Positions 23,695 through 46,719 are shown, counted from the stretch's first letter. The stretch: 55,742 nt of DNA from an uncultured Bacilli bacterium (GCA_944372415.1 CALVZA010000014.1:1-55742); one strand, 5' to 3'. A program made the numbers and translations. Notes: generated from the letters alone by a model not told the origin.

Positions 23695-25974
23695 TTACTC
23701 ATCTTGGAAAAAATCATCAAAATACTGATCATCAGTAATTACATTAGTATTATTAGAAATACTATTATTTTCTATTTCTTTCTTTTCTTCTGGTTTTATA
23801 GAAGAATCTGAATTTTCCATTAACAAATCATTAAATGTTTTATTAATACTACTACTTTCATTATCTTTATCACTAGTCATATCTTTTAAATTTAATGTTT
23901 CAATATTTGATTCTTTTTCCTTATTTAAACTTTCGTCTAAGTCAAACTTAAATTCTTCAAGAACTTTATCTACATCTTTATTAACATCTTGTTCTATTAC
24001 TTGAGGTTTAGTATTTTCTTTCTCTTTTTCTAATCTTTCCTCTTCTTCAAGTTCTGCTATTTTAGCATCTATCTTCTTTAGTAACTCATCGACATCAACT
24101 TCTCCATTTCCCTCAAAAGGATTAGGAAAATTAGTATTATTATTCGACATAGGATTATTTTGAATAAAAGGATTTATCCCTCCACCAAACATGTCAGTTG
24201 CATTCATTCCTCCGAAATTAGAATTTTCAAAAGGATTTGGAGTTCTATTAAGATTATTCATTACTTTATCTTTTTTTCTTTTATTAACAAAATCTTTTAA
24301 ATCAAATAGACCTATCTTACCTTTGGCTCTATCTACAAAATCAGCCTTAGAGTAACTATTTCCCCAATCTATTTCATAACTAGGTTTTAACTTAGTTTTA
24401 AATGGATTTAATCTCGATCTCATTATAATTGCTTCATTCATTTTCATTTTCTGTAAATCACTTACAGTAACTAATGGAGTTGAAGCTGTTTTATCTTTAT
24501 CTTTACTTTTCTTTTCTCCACATAACTTACTAATTTCTTCTAATGCGGCTAACTCAGTAGTTAATAAATAAATCAAATTACCACAATTACTTCGTATAGT
24601 TTCTGCATCTTCTTTACCGTATACATCATTTAATTGAGCAAAATTTTGAATAATAAATGTAAATCTTATTGCTCTACTACGTGCAGCAGTAACCATTGTA
24701 GTAACATCTTTTAATGGAGGCATATTAGCAAACTCATCAAGTATAAAATTAGTTCTAACTGGTAACTCTCCACCACTTTCTTGAGCAACGTCAATTAAAG
24801 TTTCATAACATTGCTTAATAAAAATAGTTGCTAAAGCATGATAAGTAGTTTTTTCATCATGTATTACCATAAAAACAGCAGTTGGCTTTTTACCAATATC
24901 TCGCATATTAAAATCACTGCGACTTAACATTTCTGATAACTGTTCACGACTTGCAAAAAGTCTTATCTTCTGTCTAAAAACAGAAAGAATACCACCCTTA
25001 GTTTCCGTAGGGGAATTTATTGTATTACTTGCAAATACATAAGGTGTACTAGATTCTCCCTTTAAATTAAAATATTCTTTTATATAATTTGATGGCGGAC
25101 ACTTTTCCTCTCCAACAGTAGTTACATAACTAATAGAATTTAAATTTATCTCTTCTTCCTTAGCATCTTCAAATAACCCAAGTGTTACACCAGCAAAATA
25201 ATCCGATGCACTTTTCTCCCAAAATGGATCTTGTGCTTTTTTATCTTGTATAATATTTAATGCAACATCATCTACAAGTTCTGTTGCTTTATCAGTATTA
25301 CCTAACTTATATAATTGATAAGGTAAAGTTAAAGGATTCCAACAATTTCCCTTTTGAGGTTCACGAAAATTTAATACTATAATATTATAACCTCTAGCAC
25401 GCAACAAATTTGAATGATTCTTATAAATTTCTCCCTTAGGATCAGTAATAATCATACTTTCCTTCGCTTTCGCTAAACTGTATACCAAAGGATCTACTAC
25501 ACTAGTAGTTTTACCACTACCAGTTGCACCTATTACTAATGTGTGATTTTCTCCATTATCAACCCACATATCTTTACCGTTATTAATTAGTACTGTTCCA
25601 GCCGCAGTTGAATCAGGACTACTAATAGGAACTTTAACCACTTTAGAGGCATTTTTTATTTCTTTTTCCTTTGACCAACGAGCATACCCTTTTTCATCTT
25701 TTTCACCAATATTAATACCAATTCCTTTACCCTTTTCTCTATTGAAAATATAAGAAGAAACACTAGCAAATATTGCTATCAAAACAACAAAAAATAATAA
25801 AAACGTTCCAAAAATATACTCAGAGCTAAATCCAGCAAAAGGATTTAATCCTAAAAACTCACCTTCATTTATTATACTTACAGCATTACTAACCGCTATA
25901 CTAGATAAAAATAACAAAAAAATACAAAATACTATAAATATAATAAGATCTTTCGAACTAACATTAAATTTCAT
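23695..25974 (-). CDS. VirD4/TraG-type coupling ATPase
   Basis: This membrane-bound ATPase feeds substrates (DNA or protein) into a type IV secretion channel. Two N-terminal helices (about 10-33 and 48-73) are followed by the cytoplasmic motor. Walker A is GATGSGKTTSV (near 155), then IITDPKGEIY and NPLTLPYQL. Walker B is NFILDEFANMP (near 411), with FIIQNFAQL after it. The C-terminal 180 residues are low-complexity, Asn- then Glu/Lys-rich, and may serve as a substrate or partner arm. SD GAAGGG precedes the ATG. It is the last gene of the T4SS-like transcript. No relaxase is nearby, so DNA transfer is not shown. Confidence 0.92.
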   Translation of the reverse strand: MKFNVSSKDLIIFIVFCIFLLFLSSIAVSNAVSIINEGEFLGLNPFAGFSSEYIFGTFLLFFVVLIAIFASVSSYIFNREKGKGIGINIGEKDEKGYARWSKEKEIKNASKVVKVPISSPDSTAAGTVLINNGKDMWVDNGENHTLVIGATGSGKTTSVVDPLVYSLAKAKESMIITDPKGEIYKNHSNLLRARGYNIIVLNFREPQKGNCWNPLTLPYQLYKLGNTDKATELVDDVALNIIQDKKAQDPFWEKSASDYFAGVTLGLFEDAKEEEINLNSISYVTTVGEEKCPPSNYIKEYFNLKGESSTPYVFASNTINSPTETKGGILSVFRQKIRLFASREQLSEMLSRSDFNMRDIGKKPTAVFMVIHDEKTTYHALATIFIKQCYETLIDVAQESGGELPVRTNFILDEFANMPPLKDVTTMVTAARSRAIRFTFIIQNFAQLNDVYGKEDAETIRSNCGNLIYLLTTELAALEEISKLCGEKKSKDKDKTASTPLVTVSDLQKMKMNEAIIMRSRLNPFKTKLKPSYEIDWGNSYSKADFVDRAKGKIGLFDLKDFVNKRKKDKVMNNLNRTPNPFENSNFGGMNATDMFGGGINPFIQNNPMSNNNTNFPNPFEGNGEVDVDELLKKIDAKIAELEEEERLEKEKENTKPQVIEQDVNKDVDKVLEEFKFDLDESLNKEKESNIETLNLKDMTSDKDNESSSINKTFNDLLMENSDSSIKPEEKKEIENNSISNNTNVITDDQYFDDFFQDE

Positions 25975-26005
25975 GATTACATCCCTTCAATTAATTTTAT
26001 TATAA

Positions 26006-26038
26006 AACAAATAGTATATTTTTTCTATACTATTTGTT
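26006..26038 (-). other. Long perfect hairpin between the lipoprotein gene and virD4-like gene
   Basis: AACAAATAGTATA/TATACTATTTGTT is a 13-bp perfect inverted repeat with a 7-base loop. The lipoprotein stop codon is inside it. The minus-strand tail is only TTTAT, so termination would be weak; partial termination or mRNA stabilisation is possible. Confidence 0.5.
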
Positions 26039-26734
26039 TGATTTCTTTATCTTTACATAAATTATAATAGTAAAAAGAACTATTATAATCAATAAAACTA
26101 CAATAATATAATTAATAACATTATTAGCAACATTATTATCAATTTTTGTATATTTATCTAAAATATTATCTGAAAATTGTATACTTATAGATTTATTAGA
26201 ATAATTATCTTTATTTATATACCAATAATAAATTCCATTATCTTCTTTATCAGCATTAGTATGAGAAATATTTTTATCGGTTTTAAAAGATACTGTTATT
26301 TCTTTCAAATAAGGATAACTTTCAAATATATTATTTATACTATTTGCTAATATAATATTATCTGTTACTCTAAATGACTTAAATAAATTATTAACAATAG
26401 AAGAATTTTGATAATCTTCATTTTCTTTAAAATTATAATTTAAATTTAATCCATATTTATTTTGTTCTTTTATCAATTTTTTATTATAATAATTATAATT
26501 TTTTAATATTTCTTCATCTGTCATATCACCAGGCTGATCTTTATAATCTACTAATATTATAGAATTAGTATAATATTCATTAACTAATTCATTAAATTTT
26601 TGATTATATTCATTTTGATTATTTATAACTTCAAAAGATTCATTAAAAATATCGTCTTCATATACAAGATTATAATTTGCTACACAACCAGACATTATAA
26701 TTGTAATAAATACTAAAAGTATAATTTTTCTCAT
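26030..26734 (-). CDS. Membrane lipoprotein with a C-terminal transmembrane helix
   Basis: I do not recognise a family. A lipoprotein signal (lipobox IIMSGC, Cys near 17) starts the 234-residue protein. A soluble extracellular domain with many Tyr and Asn (about 20-200) follows, then a second hydrophobic helix (IIVVLLIIIVLFTIIIYVKI) and a short basic tail. The soluble part could form a TPM-like or pilus-base domain, but no motif decides. Its position between the wall enzymes and virD4 in a T4SS-like transcript suggests a structural or assembly role. A lipid anchor plus a C-terminal membrane helix is a rare topology. Confidence 0.7.
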   Translation of the reverse strand: MRKIILLVFITIIMSGCVANYNLVYEDDIFNESFEVINNQNEYNQKFNELVNEYYTNSIILVDYKDQPGDMTDEEILKNYNYYNKKLIKEQNKYGLNLNYNFKENEDYQNSSIVNNLFKSFRVTDNIILANSINNIFESYPYLKEITVSFKTDKNISHTNADKEDNGIYYWYINKDNYSNKSISIQFSDNILDKYTKIDNNVANNVINYIIVVLLIIIVLFTIIIYVKIKKSNK

Positions 26735-26747
26735 TATATCACCTATT

Positions 26748-27089
26748 CTAATGATGTTTTATAATATTTAAATAAGTTAAAAAGTTAACATCAGTATCTC
26801 TGTTATAAGGTCTCCAAGCTTTATGATAAAATATTTGTGATTTAAACCAAAAGTATGAATATATATGAACAACAGTCTTATCTACTGCTTCAAGTTGTAC
26901 AACTAGGTAATCCTCTCCATAAACATGACACAGCTTAATTTTTACTGAATAAAAATTCATTTCATAAGATGTATAACTAGTATAAACAGCTTTGACGTTC
27001 CTAATAAATCATCGCAATTTCCTTTTCTACAATATTTTCTCCCCCAAATCTTGCATCATAATTTCATTATCAAAACTAGAATCATACAT
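26748..27089 (-). pseudogene. Decayed small gene with frameshifts
   Basis: An ATG that overlaps the stop of the upstream gene (ATGTATGA) opens MYDSSFDNEIMMQDLGEKIL and soon stops. The next frame then continues with RKYCRKGNCDDLLGTS, and the third with KAVYTSYTSYEMNFYSVKIK through to a stop at 26748. The last piece is a 70-residue open frame if read from its own Met, but its coding character extends upstream of that Met. The three pieces together look like one ~110-residue gene with two frameshifts. The family is unknown. Sequence error is an alternative explanation. Confidence 0.5.
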
Positions 27090-28881
27090 TTAAATTAGAA
27101 CTAGCACCACTTTCAGTAGTAGCACCTTCATATCTATAAACAGTTATATAATCATGGCCACTATCCCTAAAATGAACATGCCCTCCACTATTATCTGTTG
27201 TAATAGTATTATTAGTTGGGTAAGTAGATTTTATAGACCCCCACCCAAATGTATGTGCATCATCTATATAAATCTCAGCATGTTGGCCCTTAGTACTATA
27301 TAAAGTTCCAGAGTGTGCAACTAAAACGTCCCCAGTTTGTAAAGTTCCAATATCATCACTAGAATAAGCCTTCCAACCATAATTTCCAACAGTTTTAGCC
27401 CAAGAACCATTTGGATATACCATTTCACCTGAATAACTTTCAGGTAAATCAACTCCACTTACATAAGACATATAAGCAGCCGCAAATTCAGTACAATCGT
27501 CCCCAAAAGCACGTGTACCAAAAGGAGTTTCATAATATTTCCTACTCCCACTACCCTTACCACTTGTTCTATTTTGATAAGTATTTACATTAGCTATATA
27601 CCAATTAGCAATTTCTTCAAGTTTTCCTGCCACATCTCCCGATGCACTACCACACATTATTTTACCAGAATTACTTAGATTAGTAGTAATAAAATTATTA
27701 ACACTTTTATAAGTCTCATCATCATAATGAAGACCATCACTACTTCCAACATTACTTAAACTACTATAAGAATCTATGTAATTAGAAGAAAAATTATCTC
27801 TTAATTTTTTATTAAAACCTTCTATTTCATTATTTGTAATAGAGTAACCATTACTAACAGTTTTACTTTCATCAACAGGATTAACTGATAAAACATAAAA
27901 TTTAGTACTAGGATATTTAGTTATTAAAGATTTATAAGCTTCAATATAATTATCTATATTATATAAATCATTAACACCCAACGATAATATAACAACTCCA
28001 TCAGTTTTTTCTTGCAATTTACTGTCTAATAAACTCAACCCAGTAGTGGTTAACCAATCATAACCTTTACCTGATTCAGCAATATAACTTGCATTTTCAT
28101 TTCCAACTGCAGACTGCATCCCTAAAGCCCTAGAGTCTCCTACATAAATTAATTTATTTTCAACTTCTTCCGGAGTGCAATTTCTCATTCCTTGGCCCTT
28201 TGAAGTCATATTCGTCCCATTTGTTAAAGTTAAGTTTTTAATATCATCACTTGCAAATACAGAAACACATATCATAAATAATAAGAATACTGCTCCACAA
28301 CCAATAACCATTTTAATTTTTAAAGGTGTAGGAAGTTTAGCAAATAAATTACCTAAAACATCACCATTATCTAATGAACTAGTAGATGAACCACCATTAC
28401 TATTACCAAATAGTCCATCCATTTTACTTTTATTATTTCCTTTTGTTCCTCCTGAAGTGCTACCTCCTTGAAAACCACTAGAAGGCTTAGAATTATTTAA
28501 AGCACTGGCTCCTTTACTCCCAGCACTTCCTGCACTAGGACCATTTTTCATCGAAATTAAATCTTTTGCTTGCTTAGCTGTATCTGTTATACCAGCATCA
28601 TCTGCTTTTTTTAACACATTTCCAACTGGACTTTTAGCTAAAGGTTTTGCAACAGTTTTTACAGCTTTATCCCAAGTATTTTTTACAGCAGAACCAACTA
28701 TAGGAACTTGTTCAGCCATATTTTTAATTTGACTTCCTTTACCTCCAGTAAAATAATCTAAAGCAACTTCTCCAGCAAGATCAACTGCCTTTTCAGTAGA
28801 TTCTTGTTTCTGTTCTTTTTTACTTTTTGGTTCTTCTTGTTCCACATCAACATTATTCGGATTAGCCTTATAAGTTCCCAT
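27082..28881 (-). CDS. Bifunctional wall enzyme: SGNH hydrolase plus CHAP/NlpC-like peptidase, membrane-anchored
   Basis: Layout of 599 residues: a cytoplasmic Lys/Gly/Ser-rich arm (1-190), one membrane helix (about 193-214), an SGNH-type esterase domain (about 235-405) and a papain-like amidase/endopeptidase domain (about 420-590). SGNH marks are YVGDSRALG (nucleophile Ser), SLGVNDLYN and SSDGLHYDD (catalytic Asp/His pair). The last domain has GDDCTEFAAAY (Cys) and KGQHAEIYIDD (His). SGNH enzymes of this kind often remove O-acetyl groups from peptidoglycan, so the pair could first deacetylate and then cut the wall to let a secretion channel through, like VirB1/CwlT. The pairing and topology are seen; the substrate is inferred. 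Confidence 0.85.
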   Translation of the reverse strand: MGTYKANPNNVDVEQEEPKSKKEQKQESTEKAVDLAGEVALDYFTGGKGSQIKNMAEQVPIVGSAVKNTWDKAVKTVAKPLAKSPVGNVLKKADDAGITDTAKQAKDLISMKNGPSAGSAGSKGASALNNSKPSSGFQGGSTSGGTKGNNKSKMDGLFGNSNGGSSTSSLDNGDVLGNLFAKLPTPLKIKMVIGCGAVFLLFMICVSVFASDDIKNLTLTNGTNMTSKGQGMRNCTPEEVENKLIYVGDSRALGMQSAVGNENASYIAESGKGYDWLTTTGLSLLDSKLQEKTDGVVILSLGVNDLYNIDNYIEAYKSLITKYPSTKFYVLSVNPVDESKTVSNGYSITNNEIEGFNKKLRDNFSSNYIDSYSSLSNVGSSDGLHYDDETYKSVNNFITTNLSNSGKIMCGSASGDVAGKLEEIANWYIANVNTYQNRTSGKGSGSRKYYETPFGTRAFGDDCTEFAAAYMSYVSGVDLPESYSGEMVYPNGSWAKTVGNYGWKAYSSDDIGTLQTGDVLVAHSGTLYSTKGQHAEIYIDDAHTFGWGSIKSTYPTNNTITTDNSGGHVHFRDSGHDYITVYRYEGATTESGASSNLNV

Positions 28882-28895
28882 AATTCACCGCCTTA

Positions 28896-29396
28896 CTATT
28901 TTATATTCACAGTACTTTCATCTAAATAAACTTCAAAATTCATAATAGATTTTTCCTTAATAATATACTGATTTCCACTTTTATCATATATATTAAAAAC
29001 TTTATTACCATTAATTCTTGAAACGCTGTATTTATCCACATCCATAGAATAAATTGATAAACTCATAATATTTTCTACATATTCTTTATACTTATCAATT
29101 GTTCCAAATCTTATTTCCCTATATTCTTTATTTAAATTATTCCAAGCTTCATCAATATCAAATAACATATTATTCTTATACTCATTCAAATATTTTTTTA
29201 CCATATCTTCTTCAGTAACATAAACTGGAATAAATTCATTATAGTCATACTTTTTTAAATACTTATAATTAGTTGTATCACTTTCACCAATAATTTTATT
29301 TTTACTACTAAGAACAATATATATTATAAAAGTAATAACAACTAATACTATACAAATAAATATTATTTTTTTATTTTTTTTTATATTTTCAATCAT
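28896..29396 (-). CDS. Single-pass membrane protein, possible VirB8/TcpC-like (copy 1)
   Basis: The 166-residue protein has one N-terminal helix (about 11-30) and an extracellular domain of mixed helix and strand. The pattern is a helix ending in VKKYLNEYKNNM, EAWNNLNKEYREIRFG, then a strand-rich end finishing in FEVYLD. Such NTF2-like domains with a single anchor are how VirB8 and TcpC look, but no diagnostic motif exists and similarity is by fold pattern only. Its ATG overlaps the stop of the related upstream gene in ATGA. SD AAGGAGGG. Confidence 0.5.
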   Translation of the reverse strand: MIENIKKNKKIIFICIVLVVITFIIYIVLSSKNKIIGESDTTNYKYLKKYDYNEFIPVYVTEEDMVKKYLNEYKNNMLFDIDEAWNNLNKEYREIRFGTIDKYKEYVENIMSLSIYSMDVDKYSVSRINGNKVFNIYDKSGNQYIIKEKSIMNFEVYLDESTVNIK

Positions 29397-29899
29397 AAAC
29401 CCTCCTTAAATATTTTTCCATCATAAGGAGCAATGCTAAATAATTGATCTTTTAAATCCATATTAACTTTATAATATTCCTCTTGTTTAATAGGACTTTC
29501 ATCAAGTACTTCTTTAACTAAATCACCCATTACATAATAAGTTATATAATTTTTATCAACCTCTTGATAATATATTTTCTTAGATTTAAATGTGTAATTT
29601 CCATCTAACTTATTTAAAAAATTATAAACATTATCTTTAGTAATATTATTTGAATTAACATATTCATCATCTAATACACTCATAAGTGCATCAGAATTAT
29701 TTCCAGATAAATATGTTATATATTTATATATACACGAATTTACAGTAAAAAATCTAGAATAATCATTTAATAAAATATAATTATCTTTCTTAACAACTTC
29801 TACTTTGTCATCATTATTTAAATATAATAAACCAACTATAGATATAAGAATTAAACATATAATAACTAAAATTATATAATTATCTTTTTTCTCATTCAT
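29393..29899 (-). CDS. Single-pass membrane protein, possible VirB8/TcpC-like (copy 2)
   Basis: This 168-residue protein has the same build as its downstream neighbour: an N-terminal helix (about 8-27) and a domain with SRFFTVNSCIYKYITYLSGN, SDALMSVLDDEYV and a strand-rich C-terminal half. Same size, same topology and a four-base overlap suggest a duplicated pair, as found for VirB8-like subunits that form a ring or heteromer. Confident family placement needs a structure-based search. Confidence 0.5.
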   Translation of the reverse strand: MNEKKDNYIILVIICLILISIVGLLYLNNDDKVEVVKKDNYILLNDYSRFFTVNSCIYKYITYLSGNNSDALMSVLDDEYVNSNNITKDNVYNFLNKLDGNYTFKSKKIYYQEVDKNYITYYVMGDLVKEVLDESPIKQEEYYKVNMDLKDQLFSIAPYDGKIFKEGL

Positions 29900-29913: not shown

Positions 29914-31974
29914 TTATCCATAGACATTCATATTATAATTATTGTTAACAAATAAGTCACACTCTGCTACTCTACGCTTTTTTAACCCACTTAAATAATT
30001 TCCATTAGCATCATGTAAAGCTTTTTGTTCCCACCAATTGCTACATAATGCACTTGTAGAACCATAAGCAGCATACGCTTCAAAAAAGCCATTAATATTT
30101 CCACAATTAAATTGTAAACTTGCCAGAGCAGCAACTTGATTTTCATTTAATGTTATTCCCTTAGTAGATAACATGCCTCGAATATTATTAAATCTTCCTT
30201 GAACATCATCATTATAAATTGCATCAACTATATTTTTAGGAACTAAACTACCAACAGATAAAGTACTAGGATTAATTCCATAAGCCCTAAATGCATCTGC
30301 ATTATATTTTAAAGTAATTCCATGCCCTACTGTTGCAACTCCTCCAGAATCATTATAAACTTTGTAAAAGTCGCCTTCCATAGGTCCAGTTCCTTCCATA
30401 TTACCAATCCACTCTAAAACTTTACTATTTGTTCCACTAGGTCTTGGATTATCAGCAGATACAAAATTCAAAGGATCTTGTACAGAAGAACTATCATTTC
30501 CACCAACTCTTACCTCAAAATGTAAATGAGGTCCAGTAGAACTTCCACTATGTCCAACTTTTGCAATAACTTGACCTTGTTTTACACTATCACCAAGCTC
30601 CACTGTTATACTACCTTCTGCTAAATGAGCATATAAAGTATAATTCCCATCAACATGTTGTATTATGATATGATTCCCATATCCTCCACCGCAAGATTTA
30701 TCTCCACCATCTTTACAGACTATTCCATCAGCCTTTGTAGACTTAACAACAACTCCATCTTTACTAGCTATTACATTAGTAGAATTTAAATCCCCTGGAA
30801 TATCAATTCCAGTATGATTAGAGTTAACCTTACCACTTATAGGATGAGTTCTAAGACCAAAATTACTAGAAACAGAAGTTTTTTCTGGTGTACCTACAGC
30901 CATTAAAACACCACCAGAATCGGTCGTTTCACTACTACCTATTGGCCACCAATATTGATTTGAATTAACACTAGTAAATTGTTCAGATATTTTAGAAAAA
31001 TTATCTAACCCATAAGATTCAATTACACTCTTAATTCCCTTTACAATAGACTCTCTAGCTTTTTTAATCTCATCTTTATATTTTTCTTTTTCTTCAGAAG
31101 ATAATTCAGACATTTTATCATGTCCAGTTCTTTGCAATACAAAATCAAAATAAGACTGCAAATGTTGCTTGTTATCAAAATATTCTCCATTAATTAAATA
31201 GTCCCAAAAAAATTCCTCATTAACAACTTTATCATTAGATGTTTCAAATTTTGATTCTATAAAACCTAATTCTTTAATTTTTTCACTACACTTTTTTTCA
31301 TTTTCACTACCTAAAAAAGTTAATCCAAGAGCATCAAAAAAACTTCCTTTATACGTATCTACTTTAGAAACACATTGGTTACCCATTACTATCATACTTG
31401 ATGAAGAACAAGCCTTATAAGAATTACCATTTGAATCAGTATAAGTTTTAGGCTCTTCGTTTGCAACTCCATAACATACAGAATTATAACCTATAAAACT
31501 GTTTACCAAAGTTTTTAAAGAATCTGTTTCATTCTCAAAATATTTTTTTGCACTTTCTCTATTACCATCATCACTACCAATATATTTATTAATAGTAGAT
31601 TCATTCTCATCTATTTTATAAGGATTATATTCTTTCGCTTCATCCGGATCAGCAAATGAATCAGGATTTAATCCATAAAAAACAGTAGCAATAATCAAAT
31701 TATCATTTATATATCCATATTCCTTTTGAACTTCATCTAACAACTTATATAGTCTAGTATAAAACTTTTCCTTTGTTTTCAAAACTTCATCTATACATTC
31801 TTGATCATCTTCACAAGAACTAGTCCAAAAATTTCTGTTTTGTTCCAACAACTCATCCCAATCAAAATCTGAATAAGCAAAACTAGCAGCACTACTATTT
31901 ATTCTTATAGAAAAAAAAGTTATAAAAAGAAAAACTAACAAAAGTCCATATCTTACCACAAAATTTCTTTTCAT
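29914..31974 (-). CDS. Secreted bifunctional wall hydrolase: M23 metallopeptidase plus GH24 muramidase
   Basis: A signal peptide or anchor (about 1-30) is followed by an N-terminal helical region with paired Cys (to about 350). A LytM/M23 domain then shows GLRTHPISGKVNSNHTGIDI (zinc His and Asp), GYGNHIIIQH and GPHLHFEVRV (catalytic and zinc His). A C-terminal GH24 (T4-lysozyme-like) domain (about 520-686) has the Glu in WIGNMEGTG, then GGVATVGHGITLKYN, and ends with KKRRVAECDLF. It would cut both the glycan and the peptide of peptidoglycan. In T4SS operons such VirB1/CwlT-like proteins open the wall for the channel. Having both a peptidase and a muramidase in one protein is common; this M23+GH24 pair is less so. 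Confidence 0.9.
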   Translation of the reverse strand: MKRNFVVRYGLLLVFLFITFFSIRINSSAASFAYSDFDWDELLEQNRNFWTSSCEDDQECIDEVLKTKEKFYTRLYKLLDEVQKEYGYINDNLIIATVFYGLNPDSFADPDEAKEYNPYKIDENESTINKYIGSDDGNRESAKKYFENETDSLKTLVNSFIGYNSVCYGVANEEPKTYTDSNGNSYKACSSSSMIVMGNQCVSKVDTYKGSFFDALGLTFLGSENEKKCSEKIKELGFIESKFETSNDKVVNEEFFWDYLINGEYFDNKQHLQSYFDFVLQRTGHDKMSELSSEEKEKYKDEIKKARESIVKGIKSVIESYGLDNFSKISEQFTSVNSNQYWWPIGSSETTDSGGVLMAVGTPEKTSVSSNFGLRTHPISGKVNSNHTGIDIPGDLNSTNVIASKDGVVVKSTKADGIVCKDGGDKSCGGGYGNHIIIQHVDGNYTLYAHLAEGSITVELGDSVKQGQVIAKVGHSGSSTGPHLHFEVRVGGNDSSSVQDPLNFVSADNPRPSGTNSKVLEWIGNMEGTGPMEGDFYKVYNDSGGVATVGHGITLKYNADAFRAYGINPSTLSVGSLVPKNIVDAIYNDDVQGRFNNIRGMLSTKGITLNENQVAALASLQFNCGNINGFFEAYAAYGSTSALCSNWWEQKALHDANGNYLSGLKKRRVAECDLFVNNNYNMNVYG

Positions 31975-37011: not shown

Positions 37012-37021
37012 AATCTCACCT

Positions 37022-37462: not shown

Positions 37463-37816
37463 TTATCTACAATTACTTGGATGTAAAAAACATTCTTCAC
37501 AAACAGAGAACCCTGCTGCATCTTTATTAGAATTATAATCATTAACTAATCCAAATACCCATAATATTATATTCGGAATTAAGAAAATAACTATACCAGC
37601 GATAACTCTATAAATTAATCTCTTAGTTTGTTTCTTAATTTCATCTTCTTTTTCTGCAATTACTGCTTTACCAAAATCAAACATACCTAATGCAATAATT
37701 AGCAAAGGAATTGCTATTTTAAACACTAATAAAACATATCCTATTATTTGAATAACGTCTTTCATATTAGTACAAAAAGATGAAATATCAACTGCACCAA
37801 AACTTAATAAACTCAT
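37463..37816 (-). CDS. VirB2-like pilin candidate (paralogue B), monocistronic
   Basis: This 117-residue protein has two membrane helices (about 24-45 and 69-91) and the shared motif A-I-P-L-L-I-I-A-x4-D-x2-K-A-V. No cleavable signal is obvious; the N-terminus SLLSFGAVDISSFCTNM is short. The C-terminus carries CEECFLHPSNC, a C-x2-C-x-L-x-P-S-N pattern also at the end of the 41297 gene product. It has its own near-consensus promoter and its own terminator, while its neighbours are in polycistronic units. This suggests it is made in larger amounts, as expected for the main pilin subunit. Confidence 0.75.
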   Translation of the reverse strand: MSLLSFGAVDISSFCTNMKDVIQIIGYVLLVFKIAIPLLIIALGMFDFGKAVIAEKEDEIKKQTKRLIYRVIAGIVIFLIPNIILWVFGLVNDYNSNKDAAGFSVCEECFLHPSNCR

Positions 37817-38910: not shown

Positions 38911-38923
38911 ATTATCACGCCCC

Positions 38924-39403
38924 TTAACAAGTAGTTTCCTCATTTGGAAAATAAATAGATTCTGTCTCTCCCTTTATTCTAAATGTTGCAATATCACCAA
39001 CTACAGGTAAATCTATTTTAAAGAAAACAATTACCCTATAAAAATTTTTCTTCAAAGTTGTGGAATTATCTGTGCTATCTTTGCTAACACAATAATATGC
39101 TTTCCCATTAGGATCGGTACTTTCTGTTCCATCAAGATTATATCCAATGTACTCATAAGGATTATTATTATCTTTTTTAGGACACGTACCAGCGATTAAA
39201 TAACCAGTTTCTCTCAAATATGTTCCTATTTTTTTTCTAGAACAAGGATTATTTCCTTCATATTTGCTAACCAAATCCACTACATTATTTTTAACATTAA
39301 ATGCCTTTGCATAATTTATTGATATAGCTAAAAAAGAGGCAAAGAACACAATAAATGTTATTACCAACCCAAATAACCAAGTTCCTCCAATTGCCTCTCT
39401 CAT
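38924..39403 (-). CDS. TadE-like or pseudopilin-like small exported protein
   Basis: The 159-residue protein starts MREAIGGTWLFGLVITFIVF: a charged few residues and then a long N-terminal helix, like TadE/TadF and pseudopilins. The domain after it has four Cys and no enzymatic motif. The first residues M-(K/R)-E-A-x-G match the neighbouring 83-residue protein. A prepilin-peptidase site is not canonical, so processing by the PilD-like enzyme at 5.6 kb is only possible. Confidence 0.6.
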   Translation of the reverse strand: MREAIGGTWLFGLVITFIVFFASFLAISINYAKAFNVKNNVVDLVSKYEGNNPCSRKKIGTYLRETGYLIAGTCPKKDNNNPYEYIGYNLDGTESTDPNGKAYYCVSKDSTDNSTTLKKNFYRVIVFFKIDLPVVGDIATFRIKGETESIYFPNEETTC

Positions 39404-39435: not shown

Positions 39436-39687
39436 CTATTCCGTAGCAGTAGCATCCTTATCATCACAAATCAAACCAGTTATTACATTTCCTTCATCAT
39501 TATAGTAACTACAAGACAAAGTGCCATCACCGTTAGACTTACAATTAAATGCTTGAGAACAATAAGTTTGCTTTTGCAAAGCTGTTTTTATACTTGGCCA
39601 AATCAATGTAGTAAACAATACTCCTACAGCAGCTATTGCAACTACTGCAACAGCAGTCATACTTAATTCTCCACTTGCTTCTTTCAT
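39436..39687 (-). CDS. Pilin-like small protein
   Basis: The 83-residue protein starts MKEASGELSMTAVAVVAIAA, with a long hydrophobic helix (about 10-29) after a short charged leader. About 45 residues with four Cys (YCSQAFNC, LSCSYY, LICDD) follow. This is the shape of a Flp- or type-IV-like pilin with a small head that may be held by disulphides. It is the first gene after a good promoter. No family was recognised. Confidence 0.6.
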   Translation of the reverse strand: MKEASGELSMTAVAVVAIAAVGVLFTTLIWPSIKTALQKQTYCSQAFNCKSNGDGTLSCSYYNDEGNVITGLICDDKDATATE

Positions 39688-39766: not shown

Positions 39767-41230
39767 TTAATCTAATTTTACAATTTTATTATATTTATAA
39801 ATATTAAATTCATCATCTTGATATATATTTTTAATTAATTTGTTATTTTCTAAAAAAATATTTAAATTATTATCTTTAGATATTAAAATATATTCTATAT
39901 TATATTTATCAAATATATCTATATAATTCTTCCCATTTATTTCCATAAACTCAGTAAAATAATCATATTTTTTATTAAATTCTATTGTATATAAATCTGC
40001 TCTACTATCAAACATACATTTAATATCATTAAATAACAAATAACTTCCATACTTATATTCATTATATATTCTTATATTTTTATAATCTAAATTATTTTTT
40101 ATATAATTAACTGCTTCAACTGGATAATTATCTAAAAAATTTTCTTTATTAAATTTATTATAAATATTATTAATACAAGGATACCAAATAAAACAAATAA
40201 TGCAACTACTAATAACTACTGTATAAAAATATTTGTAATTTTTTAATTTAATATTTTTTAATTTTTTTAAATCAATATATTTTACTAATACAAAACTACT
40301 TAATAAAACAAATAAAGTCTCATGCCTTCTAGAAGATAACATCATTATAGTTAATCCTAATAATAAGAAAATATCATTAAGTTTTAATTTTTTATTATGC
40401 AAAATAAACAAAATTATAAAAATATAAACAACTAATAATTTAGTACTCCATAATAATAAAGGTTGATGTTCTATTATATAATATTGAGATACTCCTCTTA
40501 AAGTATTAAATAAATAAGTATAAGGAATAAATTTTAATGGTGTAAGCAATCCCATTAATAAACAAATAATAAATGAAATTATAAGTAATTTAATATTATA
40601 TTTATCATAATAAAATTTAAGATTTAATTTTTTTTGTTTTATTATTTTTACAAATAAATATTCTACAAAGAAAGGTAAAAATAATAAAAATATAAAAGGC
40701 CATACAGCAACATGTAAATTAGCAATTAATAAAGAAATAATAGATAAATAAAATATATATTTTTTATTTTGAGTAACGTTTAATCTAGTAATATTATAAT
40801 AAAACATCATAATTAAACTATATGTAATTATATGTGCTCTACACATTGCATAATTTTTAATTAATATAATTGAAATAATCATTATTATAAAAGAAACTAA
40901 TTTACTATTACATAATTTTTTTAAACAATAATATTGAATAATACCAACAAACATGTAGGCTATTAAAGTAAAAATATATATGCCTTTATAAGAAAAATAT
41001 TTATATATAACAAATACTAATACATCAAATAACCAATGTGGATATGTATAACTTAAACTATTAATCCATGAATAATGATCTTTAAAATCAATGCCATATT
41101 TAAAAATATCTTTACCTATTTTAATCGAATAAAAAGTATCATTAGTAAAATTAATATCTAAAAAATTAACTATAACTAAAATAAAAGTTACTAATAATAA
41201 TATTATTATATAAAAATATTTCTTAGACAT
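39767..41230 (-). CDS. Polytopic membrane protein, GT-C glycosyltransferase-like
   Basis: About ten to eleven membrane helices (residues 5-350) precede a soluble C-terminal domain. The segment between helices 1 and 2 (TNDTFYSIKIGKDIFKYGID then YPHWLFDVL) has the early Asp and the aromatic-His layout seen in GT-C proteins that use lipid-linked sugars. The tail with NEYKYGSYLLFNDIKCMFDS and RADLY is typical of uncharacterised members. It sits between surface-protein genes and pilin-like genes, so it could glycosylate one of them; that is inference. Confidence 0.6.
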   Translation of the reverse strand: MSKKYFYIIILLLVTFILVIVNFLDINFTNDTFYSIKIGKDIFKYGIDFKDHYSWINSLSYTYPHWLFDVLVFVIYKYFSYKGIYIFTLIAYMFVGIIQYYCLKKLCNSKLVSFIIMIISIILIKNYAMCRAHIITYSLIMMFYYNITRLNVTQNKKYIFYLSIISLLIANLHVAVWPFIFLLFLPFFVEYLFVKIIKQKKLNLKFYYDKYNIKLLIISFIICLLMGLLTPLKFIPYTYLFNTLRGVSQYYIIEHQPLLLWSTKLLVVYIFIILFILHNKKLKLNDIFLLLGLTIMMLSSRRHETLFVLLSSFVLVKYIDLKKLKNIKLKNYKYFYTVVISSCIICFIWYPCINNIYNKFNKENFLDNYPVEAVNYIKNNLDYKNIRIYNEYKYGSYLLFNDIKCMFDSRADLYTIEFNKKYDYFTEFMEINGKNYIDIFDKYNIEYILISKDNNLNIFLENNKLIKNIYQDDEFNIYKYNKIVKLD

Positions 41231-41261
41231 ACTTCAATTTTCCTTTCAAAAATAATTATTT

Positions 41262-41286: not shown

Positions 41287-41296
41287 AAATTTTAAA

Positions 41297-42160
41297 CTAA
41301 TCTTCACTTACACTACAACTAGTTGCATTAGACGGATCTAATAAACAAGAAACACAAGTTTTATACTTATCCTGTTCAATTAAATTTAACTTTTCACTTA
41401 AACCAAATACAGCATAAACCAAATTTGGAATAAAGAATACAAATAACCCAGCAAATAATCTAACTCCTAAAACTTTAAGTTGCTTATTTAAACTTTTCTC
41501 ATCTTTATCTATAACTGATTTAAATAAATCATATGTTCCAAAACCTATAATTAATAACGGAATGCATACCTTAGCAATCATTAAAAGATATCCAAAAAAA
41601 CGTAAAACCTTTTTCATAGAATTTTCATCACAAGGATTTTGTGCTACATACAAGTCTTCACAAGCAGTTTTATTTTTATTCCATTTACATGCATTCCTAG
41701 TACATTCTTCTTCTATTGTTATAGAATCACATGCCTTACCAGTAGCAACATCACTTCCCGCGCCACTTCCACCATTAGTTCCATTATCAGAAACAGTAGC
41801 ATTTTTCTTAGTAAAAGTTACATCTCCAGCAGATTCTCTATTATCATTATTACTTCTAGTCTGAACATGTGCTTGGCAACTATATGTTCCATTACGTAAA
41901 TCACTAGTAGATTTTCTTCCCGTTATTTTTTCTTTAGTATAATCTCCTGCATATAAAGTTATAGTAGTATTAATATTAGCACCAGTACATTCTAACCAAA
42001 CCCTTCTTATACCAGCAACTGAAGCTTCATAAGAATAAATTAATTCTTCAGTACTAGAATCCCATGTAGTACTTGAAGCTATAGCATGTACATCTACTTT
42101 ACAAAAGGTGAATATTATAAATATAAGTAAAAAACAAGATATCTTCTTATTCATACTCAT
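41297..42160 (-). CDS. Secreted domain fused to a VirB2-like membrane module (paralogue C)
   Basis: This 287-residue protein has a signal peptide (to VHA, about residue 26) and a small beta-rich domain with two Cys. A Gly/Ser linker and a Cys-rich stretch (CDSITIEEECTRNACKWN, spacing like a PSI-type knot) follow, then two helices with CIPLLIIGFGTYDLFKSV and LFAGLFVFFIPNLVYAVFG. The C-terminal CVSCLLDPSN matches paralogue B. It looks like a pilin-type module joined to an exposed domain, perhaps a tip or minor subunit. The Met at 42160 is chosen because AGGTGA lies at the right distance inside the end of the upstream gene. Confidence 0.68.
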   Translation of the reverse strand: MSMNKKISCFLLIFIIFTFCKVDVHAIASSTTWDSSTEELIYSYEASVAGIRRVWLECTGANINTTITLYAGDYTKEKITGRKSTSDLRNGTYSCQAHVQTRSNNDNRESAGDVTFTKKNATVSDNGTNGGSGAGSDVATGKACDSITIEEECTRNACKWNKNKTACEDLYVAQNPCDENSMKKVLRFFGYLLMIAKVCIPLLIIGFGTYDLFKSVIDKDEKSLNKQLKVLGVRLFAGLFVFFIPNLVYAVFGLSEKLNLIEQDKYKTCVSCLLDPSNATSCSVSED

Positions 42161-43265
42161 ATTTATCACCTGACTTGCTAGCAACAAACTTTTTATAAAT
42201 ATAATAAGCACCTGCTAATAACGATAATATAAGTATAATTATAAATAATATTTTAATAAAATTAGACTTTTTCTTAACTTTTATATCTATAGTATAAATA
42301 TTAGTAGAACCATCTTCTGCAGTAACAGTAACTTTTATAACACTTCCATCACTTATATTAGAATTTCCTTCAACAACTACTTTTGCTTTTTCATCTTCAA
42401 CTTCATATTTAATATCAAGTTCTTCTACACCATTATCAACGATTAAAGTATAATTGGTAATATTAGAATTAAAATTAATTTGATAATCTTTTATAGTTAA
42501 TGATTTTAACTTAGCATTATTAGATAATTTTTCATTTACTTTCTTTTTAACATTTATTCTATATTCACTTTTATTACCGTCAGTTCCAGTAACAGTAATT
42601 TTTATTATACTTCCATCAACAACATTAGTATTACCACTAATATCTACAGTACTAGTTTTATCCTCTGGAATAGCGCTAACATTAATTGTATTTACCATAG
42701 AATCAACATCAATATTATAATTATAAACATCACTAGAAAAATTTATAGTTCCACTAGATAAAGTTAAAGAAGCTAATTTTGTATTAGAAACTACCCGCTG
42801 TGTCGTAGTAGTTATTTTAGTTGTAGTCTTTGTAGTTACTCTTTTAGTAGTAGTTTTCTTTTTAGTAGTCGTAAAATATTGTGCTCCACTACTTGTTCTT
42901 TCACAGTCATAATAAACTACCATAGAACAATATCTAATCTCATCATTATTACATACTCTAGAATTATATTTTTCACAAGCACTATTATTTATTACTTCAA
43001 AATATGGAGAAGTATTACCATTAGTACATGTAACTTTATTATTAGTATAATACGTTATAATTGGATTATAATTTTCACATCTAACTTCCATACAATGACT
43101 AAAATAAGTAGATTTATCAGTTAATAAACTATTGTCTTGATACTTACTCGTACAAGTATAAACATTTGAGCCTGACCAAACTTCACTATTTCTATCAGTA
43201 GCATATACCATAGTAGGAAATAATAAAATACTTAAAACTATAAAACTTACTATTTTTTTATACAT
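42147..43265 (-). CDS. Surface protein with two cadherin-like beta-sandwich domains, membrane-anchored
   Basis: The signal peptide ends near VYA (residue 22). A Cys-rich domain (about 30-130, eight Cys) is followed by a Thr/Lys-rich stalk (KKKTTTKRVTTKTTTK and so on). Two tandem ~80-residue repeats each begin with L-x-S-L-T-x-S/K-D/G and end with I-x-V-T-x-E-D-G or I-T-V-T-G-T-D-G, the pattern of the Cadherin-like (PF12733-type) domain. A C-terminal helix (FIKILFIIILILSLLAGAYY) anchors it. Such modules are common in surface and adhesion proteins. It follows a terminator but shares the transcript with the VirB2-fused protein. Confidence 0.8.
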   Translation of the reverse strand: MYKKIVSFIVLSILLFPTMVYATDRNSEVWSGSNVYTCTSKYQDNSLLTDKSTYFSHCMEVRCENYNPIITYYTNNKVTCTNGNTSPYFEVINNSACEKYNSRVCNNDEIRYCSMVVYYDCERTSSGAQYFTTTKKKTTTKRVTTKTTTKITTTTQRVVSNTKLASLTLSSGTINFSSDVYNYNIDVDSMVNTINVSAIPEDKTSTVDISGNTNVVDGSIIKITVTGTDGNKSEYRINVKKKVNEKLSNNAKLKSLTIKDYQINFNSNITNYTLIVDNGVEELDIKYEVEDEKAKVVVEGNSNISDGSVIKVTVTAEDGSTNIYTIDIKVKKKSNFIKILFIIILILSLLAGAYYIYKKFVASKSGDKYEYE

Positions 43266-43280
43266 AATTTCAACTCCTAA

Positions 43281-43310: not shown

Positions 43311-43360
43311 AACAACTATCATATTCTCTATAAATATGATAAACCATTTTAACAATAAAA

Positions 43361-44017
43361 TCAAATATTTTTAAATAAATTAAATTTTTTAACACATACC
43401 ATAAATATAGAAGATATTAAAGCTACAATTCCTAAAACTACAAAGTAAGTATTAACTCCAGTTTTTTCATTATCAACAGTAGAAGAACTACCATAATTTG
43501 AATTATTGTCATTATTATTTTGATTATTATTATTATTGTTTTGATTATCATTAACGACATTATTTAATCCATTATCAGTTTCAAGATTATTACCATTATT
43601 ACTATCAGTTGTACAAGTTACTTGATAATCAACACTCCAATAAGCATCTCCAGAATACTTTTTATTATTATCTTCCATATAATCAGCGGCACCACCAGGT
43701 CCAGAATTTTGATAGTTAATATATTTTTCCCCATTAGTACACTGTACAGTCTTTCTCAAAGCTTCTTCAAAATCAGAAGATACACCCATATAGTCTACAA
43801 CACATTTTGTACCATCACATTTTGAATAACCATATAAAGTTATAATCTCACTTCCAGATACTGGTATTTTATTATTTTTATTTTGTTCATAAGCTGATTT
43901 TAATTCATTAAAATTAGCATCGCCCTCAGCAGCTACTGAATTGGCAGCATTAACAATCAAGCTTATTGAAAATATGCAAAATACTACTGACAAAATAATT
44001 AATACTCTATTTTTCAT
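43361..44017 (-). CDS. Secreted, membrane-anchored Asn/Gln-rich surface protein
   Basis: The signal peptide ends near VNA (residue 24). A ~100-residue domain with four Cys follows, then a low-complexity Asn/Gln spacer (DNQNNNNNNQNNNDNNSNYG). The C-terminus is a small motif EKTGVN, a hydrophobic helix (TYFVVLGIVALISSIFMVCV) and Lys residues. That tail has the outline of a sorting signal but lacks the LPxTG core, so sortase anchoring is doubtful and a simple membrane anchor is more likely. SD AAGGAGG. It sits directly behind the large cadherin-like protein. Confidence 0.65.
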   Translation of the reverse strand: MKNRVLIILSVVFCIFSISLIVNAANSVAAEGDANFNELKSAYEQNKNNKIPVSGSEIITLYGYSKCDGTKCVVDYMGVSSDFEEALRKTVQCTNGEKYINYQNSGPGGAADYMEDNNKKYSGDAYWSVDYQVTCTTDSNNGNNLETDNGLNNVVNDNQNNNNNNQNNNDNNSNYGSSSTVDNEKTGVNTYFVVLGIVALISSIFMVCVKKFNLFKNI

Positions 44018-44028
44018 ACAATACCTCC

Positions 44029-46719
44029 TTACTCTTCAAAATATTCCTTTCTAGCTTTACTATGTTTCTTTATTACTATTATGCAACTACTCATCAAAAT
44101 TATTACAGCACCTACTATAATTGAAGCAATTTCTATAGTTTTATTAAATGGATCTTTTTTAATATCTATAGAATAAGTTTCATATTTTCCATTTTCTGCT
44201 ACAACTTTTATTCTTACAGTACTAAATCCTGTAAGTTCTTCATTGCCTCTAATAAATACTTCTGCTCTATTACTATTTGGAACAGCAGTTATAACTAAGC
44301 TCTTTTCTTGTTTTATTCTTACTGTATAATCTTTTTTATTCGGACTAAATTTTATTTTATGATTTAAAACTTTCAAATCTTTTAAAGTAGTATCATCAGA
44401 AATATCTAAACCAAACTCTTTTCTTATGATTGTTAGTCTATAATAACTTTCTTGATTTTTACTATTTATTATTTTAATTTCTATAAAATTTTCTCCAACA
44501 TCTAATCCTAATCCAACTGAAGAACCAACTTTATATTCAGAATCACTCTTCTTTTTATAACTAACTATTATTTTACTACTATCATCAGCCAAAATACTAT
44601 TTAAATCAATAGAATCAGTTTGATAATCAACACTCAAACTATAATTTGCAACATCTGATTCAAATGGTAAATATACACCTGGTATTGATAAATCACTTAA
44701 TTGTAAAGATTTTTCTTCAATTATATCTTTTCCCTCTTTAATAAAAGTTAAGACATAAGTTCTTGTGCTACCAGTTTGACTAATAACTTTAATTAATTTA
44801 ACAGTAGTATCTCCCTTAATCTCTACCTTACCTGGTTCATAGCCATTTACATAACTAGCTTTATCACTTGCTATTTCTGAATCTACATTAACACTTGTTG
44901 TATTTGATGGTATTTCAATTTTATAATCAGTAATATTAGAATTAAAATCTACCTTACCAACGCTTGTACTTAGTTTACTTAAAGTATTATCACTTGTTCT
45001 ATCATCAACTCTAGTAACTAATATTGTATAAGTTCTTATTTTACCTTCTTTATTTTGTATTTTTAATAATACAGTATTAACACCATAATTTAAGTTTACA
45101 GTTCTAGGCCCATAACCATCAACATATTTTGAGTCTGTACTAGTTAAAGTTGCATAAACAGAAACAGTTGGACCACTAACTTCAAGTTTATATTCCATAT
45201 CAAATGGATTAAATCCATCTGCTAAAACTTCACTATCTTTTTCTAAATCATTACTTAACATAACATATTTTGAAGAATTTACTTTATCAGAGTTGTAAGC
45301 AACTGTTCTACTAGGAGTCTGAGGATTTCCATTACTATCATATAACTCCAATTTTTTTACTGTAGTAGAAACATTAACTGTATCAAACACTGCGCCACTA
45401 ACTGCATCACTGATATTTCCTTTAGAATCTCTAACCCAAATATACATTATTCCAGGAGAACTTTCTATTGTAAAAGTATTACCATTAATTTTAATCCATG
45501 AACTTCTATCTGTTGGTACTAAATATGTATCACTAACAAAATATGAATCTATTTTGCCTTCATTAGCAGTTGCTTTAACAGATATAGTTCCTTTACCACT
45601 ACTATTAACTACACCAGAAGTAACTGATAATGTAGGTTTTGCTTTACTTCCTTTAGTACATGACACAGAATAAGTTTGAGTACAAATACCATTTTTACAA
45701 TCTTTTTTCCCTTGGGCTTTTATTGCTGTTTCATCAAAATAATACCCCGCTTCAGTATCACAAGAGTAATATTCTTCCAATCTATCTTTTATTTCAGAAA
45801 TAGAAGTATCTTCATCATAACATAGTGGATAACTGCCTTTTTTTCTCATTTTAGTAATTATCTTATTAGAACATTTTTTTTGATTATCTTCTATTTCAAG
45901 CTTTTTACATGCTTTTTTTGCATCATCTGAACTATTTTTAAAAGAATCTATATCAATAGTTCCATTCACATTTTTTTCAGTTTCATCAAATTTCAAAATT
46001 TTTGTGTAATTACAAGCATCATCATCACAAGTTGTTACATATATAGCTTCACCGCAAGAATAATCCGACCCATTAATAGTAACATATTTCCACCCTTCAT
46101 CTTCTTCTGTAGCGGTCGCATTTGAACAAGTACGATTAGCCCCTTCAAATGTATTAGCTATTCTATCTCTTCTAATTTTTCTTAATTCACCTTCTCTTGT
46201 TCCATAGCAATATTCACCATCAGACTCTTTATTACAATAATCTATCCAAAATTCATTACCACATTCTAAATCTTGTAACCCTTCTGGCTTAGAAACTTCA
46301 GCATCTTCTTGTAAATATCTCCAACCACCTACTTCTTCTCTGTAACAAGCATAATAAACAGTATCACCATAAATTTCTGCAGTCTTATCACCTTTTTCAA
46401 TAGTTACGTCAGTAATAGTGCCATCGCCACCTTGGCATAATGGTTTACCATTCCATACAGTCTTAGTCCATCCAATTAAATAACCTTCATCATATTTACT
46501 ATACATTTCTGATGATTTATAAGGAAAATCTAAAGTTTGACCACTAGGAACAGTCCCAGAACAAAAACCATCTCTAACCCAATTAGTTCCATTATCACAT
46601 TCTAAACCATATCCATAATTTTCATCAAAAGAAACAGTAAAATCATCTGCATTTACATTGATATTAAGAAAACCACACACAGTAAAAGTAATCAACAAAC
46701 TAAACAATATCTTCTTCAT
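44029..46719 (-). CDS. Large surface protein with tandem cadherin-like domains
   Basis: The protein (896 residues) has a signal peptide (to about 25, VNA) and an N-terminal part with many Cys (about 30-370), including FDENYGYGLECDNGTNW and a Cys pair in CSGTV. From about 480 there are four repeats of the cadherin-like type, each starting D/T-x-L-x-x-L with G-x-V-x-F-x-S-x-I-x-x-Y. Examples are TLSKLSTSVGKVDFNSNITD and TLKDLKVLNHKIKFSPNKKD. A C-terminal helix (IASIIVGAVIILMSSCIIVI) anchors it. The ATG is used because AAAGTGAG precedes it; an upstream GTG lacks an SD. It may form the outermost part of the surface structure. Transcribed from a promoter just upstream. Confidence 0.8.
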   Translation of the reverse strand: MKKILFSLLITFTVCGFLNINVNADDFTVSFDENYGYGLECDNGTNWVRDGFCSGTVPSGQTLDFPYKSSEMYSKYDEGYLIGWTKTVWNGKPLCQGGDGTITDVTIEKGDKTAEIYGDTVYYACYREEVGGWRYLQEDAEVSKPEGLQDLECGNEFWIDYCNKESDGEYCYGTREGELRKIRRDRIANTFEGANRTCSNATATEEDEGWKYVTINGSDYSCGEAIYVTTCDDDACNYTKILKFDETEKNVNGTIDIDSFKNSSDDAKKACKKLEIEDNQKKCSNKIITKMRKKGSYPLCYDEDTSISEIKDRLEEYYSCDTEAGYYFDETAIKAQGKKDCKNGICTQTYSVSCTKGSKAKPTLSVTSGVVNSSGKGTISVKATANEGKIDSYFVSDTYLVPTDRSSWIKINGNTFTIESSPGIMYIWVRDSKGNISDAVSGAVFDTVNVSTTVKKLELYDSNGNPQTPSRTVAYNSDKVNSSKYVMLSNDLEKDSEVLADGFNPFDMEYKLEVSGPTVSVYATLTSTDSKYVDGYGPRTVNLNYGVNTVLLKIQNKEGKIRTYTILVTRVDDRTSDNTLSKLSTSVGKVDFNSNITDYKIEIPSNTTSVNVDSEIASDKASYVNGYEPGKVEIKGDTTVKLIKVISQTGSTRTYVLTFIKEGKDIIEEKSLQLSDLSIPGVYLPFESDVANYSLSVDYQTDSIDLNSILADDSSKIIVSYKKKSDSEYKVGSSVGLGLDVGENFIEIKIINSKNQESYYRLTIIRKEFGLDISDDTTLKDLKVLNHKIKFSPNKKDYTVRIKQEKSLVITAVPNSNRAEVFIRGNEELTGFSTVRIKVVAENGKYETYSIDIKKDPFNKTIEIASIIVGAVIILMSSCIIVIKKHSKARKEYFEE

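Follow-up and report, generated by a model that had tools for sequence, protein, structure and literature searches.

A type IV secretion locus with Tad-like genes and no linked relaxase, apparently resident in an order of uncultured gut Bacilli

Nearly all known functions of Gram-positive type IV secretion systems (T4SS) concern DNA transfer, with the Patescibacteria as a notable newcomer (FEMS review, PMC12857230). What purpose does such a system serve in a chromosome where no relaxase accompanies it? The question is raised by a block of genes, all on the minus strand, in a 55,742-nucleotide contig (C14, hereafter the window) from the draft genome, 987 kb in size and 83% complete, of an uncultured Bacilli bacterium. 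A preliminary description, made from the sequence of the window, had correctly located the block, which extends from 46731 down to 23695, and proposed a fixed chromosomal T4SS combined with Tad-like parts and cadherin-like surface proteins. Our analysis confirms that the block encodes a Gram-positive-type T4SS and that TadZ-like and pilin-like genes adjoin it, along with genes for cadherin-like surface proteins, two of which carry PF12733 domains (Table 1).

Table 1. Genes of the T4SS/Tad-like block and the prepilin peptidase gene of the same window.
Feature	Length (aa)	Position	Strand	Basis
VirD4-type coupling ATPase, CD1115 family	759	23695..25974	-	PF02534 5.7e-58
Small lipoprotein with C-terminal TM	234	26030..26734	-	lipobox by eye
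Putative second wall/surface hydrolase, a membrane protein with a GDSL-like enzymatic region	599	27082..28881	-	PF00657 7e-4, under cut-off
VirB8-like protein b	166	28896..29396	-	tandem with VirB8-like a
VirB8-like protein a, one TM + NTF2-like domain	168	29393..29899	-	AlphaFold model, Foldseek
VirB1-type wall hydrolase, M23 peptidase + phage lysozyme	686	29914..31974	-	PF01551 2.9e-25, PF00959 4.2e-9
VirB4 ATPase, C-terminal part	600	31991..33793	-	NF045975 1.6e-105
VirB4 N-terminal module (VirB4N), separate ORF	186	33786..34346	-	NF045975 positions 96-282, 4e-18
PrgI/VirB3-like membrane protein	104	34333..34647	-	NF045975 positions 2-79, E 0.05
VirB6-like polytopic protein	792	34660..37038	-	NF045848 1.5e-15, NF045889 6e-13, below curated cut-offs
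VirB2-like protein a	117	37022..37375	-	PF18895 5.8e-4
VirB2-like protein b	117	37463..37816	-	PF18895 1.6e-3
TadZ/CpaE-like protein, receiver-like + MinD-like domain	355	37876..38943	-	AlphaFold, Foldseek, alignment
TadE-position pilin-like protein, short M-R-E-x-x-G leader	159	38924..39403	-	alignment
Short Flp-like pilin, M-K-E-A-[TS]-G leader	83	39436..39687	-	leader, size, position, alignment
Polytopic membrane protein, accessory, glycosyltransferase-like by eye	487	39767..41230	-	no Pfam match
VirB2-like C-terminal hairpin + secreted Cys-containing ectodomain	304	41297..42211	-	own HMM 5e-88
Membrane-anchored protein with cadherin-like (PF12733) domains	372	42147..43265	-	PF12733 1.2e-14
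Surface protein, signal peptide + C-terminal TM	218	43361..44017	-	sequence; kept within genus
Surface protein, four cadherin-like domains + C-terminal TM	900	44029..46731	-	PF12733 1.7e-17
Prepilin peptidase (type IV leader peptidase), outside block	–	5642..6391	-	PF06750 1.7e-30, PF01478 1.4e-12

By their Pfam and NCBIfam matches, the identities of VirD4, VirB4, and the M23-lysozyme hydrolase are certain. VirD4, at 299.5 bits, exceeds the cut-off of the CD1115-family model NF045973, and the C-terminal part of VirB4 matches the solved VirB4 structure 4ag5 (E 5e-63). Three successive stretches of the mycoplasma-ICE VirB4 model NF045975 (positions 2-79, 96-282, and 294-891) are matched, the first of them weakly, by the VirB3-like protein, VirB4N, and VirB4, and thus the window divides among three ORFs what this model treats as one protein. 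Partly because it is split, VirB4 scores 353.7 bits, below the model's cut-off of 590. The separate N-module named in the preliminary description is a separate ORF in 97 of 97 resident loci; the PrgI/VirB3-like protein, weak when taken alone, lies immediately 5' of it in 96 of 96. VirB6 is found in 80 of 89 loci and a VirB2-like protein in 70 of 82, with VirD4 no more than 6.5 kb downstream of VirB4 in 49 of 67. All three of VirB4, VirD4, and VirB6 are homologous to their conjugative (MPF-FATA) counterparts, and the profile matches of VirB6, albeit below curated cut-offs, bear out its assignment. The small lipoprotein matched no Pfam family; with our own HMM it was detected in 37 of 74 loci at a distance of no more than 5 kb from VirB4, and it stands beside VirD4 in many relatives.

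Of the two VirB8-like proteins suggested earlier, one now has structural backing. The AlphaFold model of protein a (pLDDT 88.8) combines a TM segment with an NTF2-like fold, and Foldseek returns modest NTF2-like matches with TcpC of a conjugative plasmid (3ub1) among the first five (E 5.8e-3). Protein b, however, owes its assignment to position and tandem arrangement, and in several relatives a single protein of 290-300 aa replaces the pair. The three VirB2-like proteins are singly below threshold or unmatched, but 25 of 41 members of their family match PF18895 (T4SS_pilin), one model used for the pilins of Patescibacteria. These hairpin proteins form tandem arrays, with as many as eight at a single locus, and many have a signal peptide and a large ectodomain that can be of the Amidase_3 (2.5e-12), NlpC/P60 (3e-9), or C39-like peptidase (2e-4) type. 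Hairpins fused to amidase, NlpC/P60, or C39-like ectodomains are encoded at L111 2851-6801, L112 4965-6218, and L130 4620-6955, and the 304-aa protein of the window has the same build as the VirB2-amidase/NlpC fusions of relatives. As for the two wall hydrolases first proposed, the M23-lysozyme protein stands, but the second has a weak GDSL match, and a further enzymatic region in it was seen by eye only. The hydrolase slot after VirB4 varies by genus, being filled by M23/lysozyme, SpoIID-type, or other hydrolases. Because different enzymes fill this slot and others are fused to VirB2-like hairpins, cutting and crossing the wall would appear to be a constant need of the machine, and the fusions suggest a new way of placing wall-cutting enzymes.

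No relaxase or integrase was matched among the 20 block proteins in our Pfam and NCBIfam scans, in agreement with the preliminary description, and the window contains no tRNA. We extended the relaxase search to three families (PF03432, PF02486, and PF03389) in 145 sampled genomes of one family, nearly all of different genera and represented by draft assemblies with short contigs. PF03432 occurs in 33 of these genomes, PF02486 in 2, and PF03389 in none; the genome of the window and its sister genome have no match to any of the three. Many of the PF03432 matches have, at a distance of 2-10 kb, an additional VirB4 that is unsplit, measures ~780-840 aa, and shares 27-36% identity (for example, G114 contig 10, G019 contig 6, G134 contig 13, and G143 contig 11); these relaxase-bearing ICEs serve as a positive control within the data. 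No PF03432 match was seen close to a resident VirB4, the nearest on the same contig being ~70 kb away (G008). We looked in relatives for a relaxase adjoining the block, and for identity of the block to an ICE, and found neither.

The resident type of split VirB4 (~600 aa, 66-91% identical) is present in 121 of the 145 genomes. A search of the whole order drew genomes of this one family and no other, 220 of 241 of which gave a match, and among 300 genomes from other families of the class the best VirB4 match was 35%. The family, which comprises gut and other MAGs plus 'Candidatus Caccenecus', is probably RF39, as judged from the Bacilli/Tenericutes labels, the small genomes, and the one-family order. 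Across 30 genomes, the mean identity of VirB4 is 73% vs 59% for SecY (in the window at 31991-33793 and 12328-13596, respectively), and the distances of the one protein correlate with those of the other (Spearman 0.61, p 0.002). With conservation above that of SecY and distances that parallel it, VirB4 marks the locus as resident and as passed on mainly by vertical descent. Of 41 loci with sufficient flanking sequence, 31 have beside or after VirD4 a rhodanese, DedA, or RmuC gene, named by inspection of G013; the genus of the window differs in having a glycosyltransferase there instead. Together, the conservation, the SecY correlation, and the flanks fit long vertical inheritance at few sites. 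The proposal of a fixed chromosomal T4SS and Tad-like system without relaxase is therefore supported across ~120 genera, usually at a conserved site. The argument once drawn from the S10 operon fares differently: the operon is indeed one gene away from the block in the window, but the adjacency is not conserved, the rhodanese/DedA/RmuC site being the common context. Even within the genus another stretch intervenes, with SecY and VirB4 of the sister genome sharing a contig at a greater distance. We rejected this adjacency as proof of residence; it is a local accident. In one relative (G102 contig 18, L035/L034, ~56074-60488), a longer second VirB4 of 778 aa, 43% identical, lies between the resident VirB6 and VirB3.

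These distributions bear on the idea that the block is a domesticated or decaying ICE whose T4SS serves passing ICEs and plasmids in trans. Some genomes do hold relaxase-bearing ICEs as well, and Tad and T4SS genes also meet on a plasmid-like contig of another family. A PF03432 match is nevertheless found in far fewer genomes than the T4SS (33 vs 121 of 145), passing ICEs bring their own VirB4 and VirD4, and conservation above that of SecY is not expected of decay. We regard this explanation as highly doubtful.

The second half of the question concerns the Tad-like genes. In relatives, a single strand carries, upstream of TadZ, genes for a DUF5411 protein, a CpaB-like protein, a T2SSE ATPase, and two membrane proteins in the TadB and TadC places, and continues through the pilin-like proteins and TadZ into the T4SS genes. 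The CpaB-like protein exceeds the cut-off for SAF and falls just under that for RcpC (2e-6). The ATPase is of the TadA/CpaF type (T2SSE 3.9e-28; CpaF structures 1e-18) and matches CpaF and FlaI structures better than VirB11. It is found in 118 of the 145 genomes. In 52 of them it shares a contig with VirB4, and 49 of these place it upstream in the same orientation, at a distance of 6.4-12.6 kb. Both genes are present in 108 genomes, VirB4 only in 13, the TadA-like gene only in 10, and neither in 14 (odds ratio 11.6, uncorrected for phylogeny). The combination of T4SS and Tad-like parts was thus correctly perceived, but the window itself has the pilin/TadZ end only, because the CpaB, TadA, and TadB/TadC-position genes lie elsewhere in its genus: in the sister genome a different contig (L170) carries the motor set, together with CpaB and DUF5411. 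The draft of the window has no TadA-like ortholog, perhaps from incompleteness. A prepilin peptidase is encoded in 132 of the 145 genomes, and in the window as well. The 487-aa polytopic protein of the block has a relative beside the Tad set of G123.

The TadZ/CpaE-like ATPase anticipated from sequence is predicted to combine receiver-like and MinD-like folds (AlphaFold pLDDT 79.9), with Foldseek matches including MinD, FlhG, and ParA; its Walker A motif is degenerate (SHAGATT, no lysine). The proteins in the TadB and TadC positions gave no T2SSF match, the pilins match no Tad family by sequence, and 18 members of the TadE-position family gave no Tad-related Pfam match. Profiles of TadB, TadC, TadZ, and TadE were also compared with those of a canonical Tad locus that the same genome carries, and this gave no sequence proof of their identity. 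The Tad-like label rests on the ATPase, CpaB, the TadZ fold, the leader peptides, and the gene order, with the Flp-like pilin and the TadE-position protein contributing leader peptide and position. The canonical locus, on contig 46 of the genome of the window (L171, G000; 7888-12647), encodes T2SSE, two T2SSF, TadE, and MinD-like proteins. With this second locus in the genome, the linked Tad set may serve adhesion only. In small samples, the distances of TadA, TadB, TadC, and CpaB follow VirB4 less closely than those of VirD4 and VirB6.

Tad genes adjoining T4SS genes are not unique to this order, being found also in Cutibacterium acnes plasmids, on a 98-kb plasmid-like contig of G342, and on G298 contig 17. 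We rejected a common origin with the latter loci, as the VirB4 tree groups the RF39 residents with f13/f19 rather than with G342/G298; TadA of G342 groups with canonical Tad. Branches are long in these trees, which suggest repeated, separate origins of the pairing. The G342 contig (contig 2; L251, L158, L252) encodes VirB4, VirD4, a ParM-like protein, a full Tad set, and canonical Flp pilins, along with a relaxase-like ORF recognized by eye, and is possibly a conjugative plasmid with a Tad pilus.

As the best explanation of the machine, for which we see the chances of being right and wrong as even, we propose that the RF39-like order possesses in this block a contact-and-transport machine, resident and inherited vertically. 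We hold in equal balance the further proposal that it derives from a conjugative Gram-positive (MPF-FATA/mycoplasma-ICE) T4SS, no longer transfers itself, and operates jointly with parts of a Tad-like pilus. A Tad-type pilus, with its CpaF-like motor and its CpaB-, TadZ-, and pilin-like parts, would hold a neighboring cell together with the membrane-anchored surface proteins. Wall hydrolases, some of them fused in relatives to VirB2-like hairpins, would then open the wall at the contact, the VirB2/3/6/8-like proteins would form a channel or short pilus, and VirB4 and VirD4 would power transport and select the cargo. Since a relaxase is not linked, the cargo is most likely not the element's own DNA; we favor exchange of protein or another macromolecule with neighboring cells, by analogy with what is supposed for the Patescibacteria T4SS. 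The data demonstrate the gene content of the block, its residence and conservation, its Tad linkage, and the absence of three relaxase families from its vicinity; the joint action of the Tad and T4SS parts, every step of this scheme, and the cargo are inferred. Several counts weigh against the explanation: no more than 32 of 72 loci have TadZ at a distance of 8 kb or less from VirB4, VirD4 is close downstream in 49 of 67, and VirB4 stands alone in 13 genomes and the TadA-like gene in 10.

The family matches of the T4SS genes also suit a different function, relaxase-less exchange of chromosomal DNA as in the Ups/Ced system of Sulfolobales or the chromosomal transfer of mycoplasmas. For each of the 18 resident VirB4s scanned, the best match is the mycoplasma ICE model (Mbov_0397), and the neighboring genes, in matching order, correspond to Mbov_0396 and, weakly, to Mbov_0395. 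Mycoplasma ICEs are able to transfer chromosomal DNA (PMC12857230), type IV pili with VirB4-like import constitute the Ups/Ced arrangement, and VirD4 is retained here. Tad pili would in that case aggregate cells of the same species, and the T4SS would move chromosomal DNA between them. ComEC, however, is encoded by 129 of 145 genomes irrespective of whether they have the T4SS, and so uptake has its own route; this led us to reject loss of ComEC as a reason for T4SS-based uptake. Nor is any DNA-processing gene linked to the locus. We consider DNA exchange possible, if rather improbable, and the same applies to the proposed division of labor between pilus and T4SS.

A T4SS with dedicated protein toxins, directed at other bacteria or at the host, has a Gram-positive precedent in Streptococcus suis 89K (PMC12857230), and a Tad and T4SS locus of another family precedes six genes with a common C-terminal motif. 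Such a motif family is absent from the near-complete relative G013, where no shared C-terminal secretion signal was found genome-wide, and we recognized no effector/immunity pairs beside the locus. We accordingly rate an effector system as unlikely.

Returning to the contact-and-transport machine, its closest known counterpart is the resident relaxase-less T4SS of Patescibacteria, which has the same core, VirB2 arrays, and no relaxase, and which is essential along with pili in tested species (PMC12102498, PMC12857230). As in the Patescibacteria/CPR systems (Quinonero-Coronel 2025, PMC12102498; Southlakia T4SS), the locus is chromosomal and lineage-wide with relaxase mostly absent, it joins a monoderm VirB3/4/6/8/D4 core to arrays of PF18895-type VirB2-like pilins, and it occurs with a type IV-like pilus in the same cells and with reduced genomes. 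Unlike those systems, it belongs to another phylum, its split VirB4 matches the mycoplasma-ICE model best, Tad-like genes often adjoin it, some VirB2-like proteins have wall-hydrolase ectodomains, and wall hydrolases are kept. Because the phylum differs, we do not class the block as a Patescibacteria-type member; it resembles a second version of such a system, found in Bacilli and linked to Tad genes.

The mycoplasma ICE T4SS (Mbov_0395/0396/0397) shares the best NCBIfam VirB4 match, a VirB6 match, and the order pilin-VirB6-VirB3/VirB4, but belongs to mobile elements of wall-less cells and has one fused VirB4, whereas here VirB4 is split and the locus is resident, with wall hydrolases and VirB8-like and Tad-like parts. 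The MPF-FATA systems of Gram-positive ICEs and plasmids (CD1110/CD1115, pCW3) have the same VirB1/3/4/6/8/D4 set, with VirD4 over the CD1115 cut-off; the block differs from them in the absence of relaxase, integrase, and att, in its VirB2-like arrays, and in its fixed chromosomal site. With Tad/Flp pili it shares a CpaF-type ATPase, RcpC/CpaB-like and TadZ-like proteins, a prepilin peptidase, and short pilin-like proteins with short leaders, but its candidate TadB/TadC and pilin proteins are diverged beyond Pfam, the genes are continuous with the T4SS operon, and a canonical Tad locus exists separately. The linear plasmid p15.1.R1 of C. acnes (Flp pilus and VirB4/TcpC, PMC5696575) likewise has a Tad locus and T4SS-type genes on one replicon; in contrast, it is mobile and strain-variable rather than fixed and uses an FtsK-type translocase. 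We treat the block as a variant because it scores below the ICE-model cut-off, has no mobility genes, and belongs to a phylum other than Patescibacteria. Our literature search found no paper describing the RF39-like resident locus.

A whole order of abundant gut Bacilli thus apparently keeps a T4SS for its own use, conserved above SecY. That a fixed transfer machine stands without the enzyme for self-spreading, and often with adhesive-pilus genes, suggests that it has been turned into a cell-contact device. Action at cell contacts, if true, would help to explain the life of uncultured, auxotrophic RF39-like bacteria, and a relaxase-free T4SS with type IV-like pili can now be tested as a repeated solution in small-genome bacteria. 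RF39 has reduced genomes without fatty-acid synthesis (PMC6784871), which makes the comparison with Patescibacteria biologically tempting, if unproven. Taken to its end, the comparison would have RF39-type gut Bacilli live by direct cell contact, the composite Tad-pilus/T4SS machine attaching, opening the wall by means of hydrolases tethered to pilins, and exchanging or taking up material. We think this lifestyle improbable, slightly more so than the effector system; if real, it would be a second phylum's convergent counterpart, here in the animal gut, of the lifestyle of epibiotic Patescibacteria.

Several further genes were observed in or near such loci. A few genes from the T4SS block, at 49917-55271 of the window, lie T7SS-like genes encoding a 114-aa WXG100-like protein (by size and sequence) and a 1537-aa FtsK/EssC-like protein; no such genes were seen next to the other resident loci. 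We rejected the T7SS as a part of the machine, as in the gene maps an EssC-type gene occurs elsewhere only in the unrelated G342. In G013, contig 1 encodes TM-anchored proteins ending in a common KSGxGTxxxPYxI motif at 199368, 221923, 262987, and 286382, two of which flank the Tad/T4SS locus. The six genes of the other family mentioned above (L162, G298 contig 17) are nearly consecutive ORFs of 121-606 aa at 12911-19162, behind the Tad and T4SS set. Their common C-terminal motif, of the form [LM]xxFCxVTxx[ED][VI]...ER, occurs in no other ORF in 415 kb sampled of that genome and looks like a shared T4SS secretion signal.
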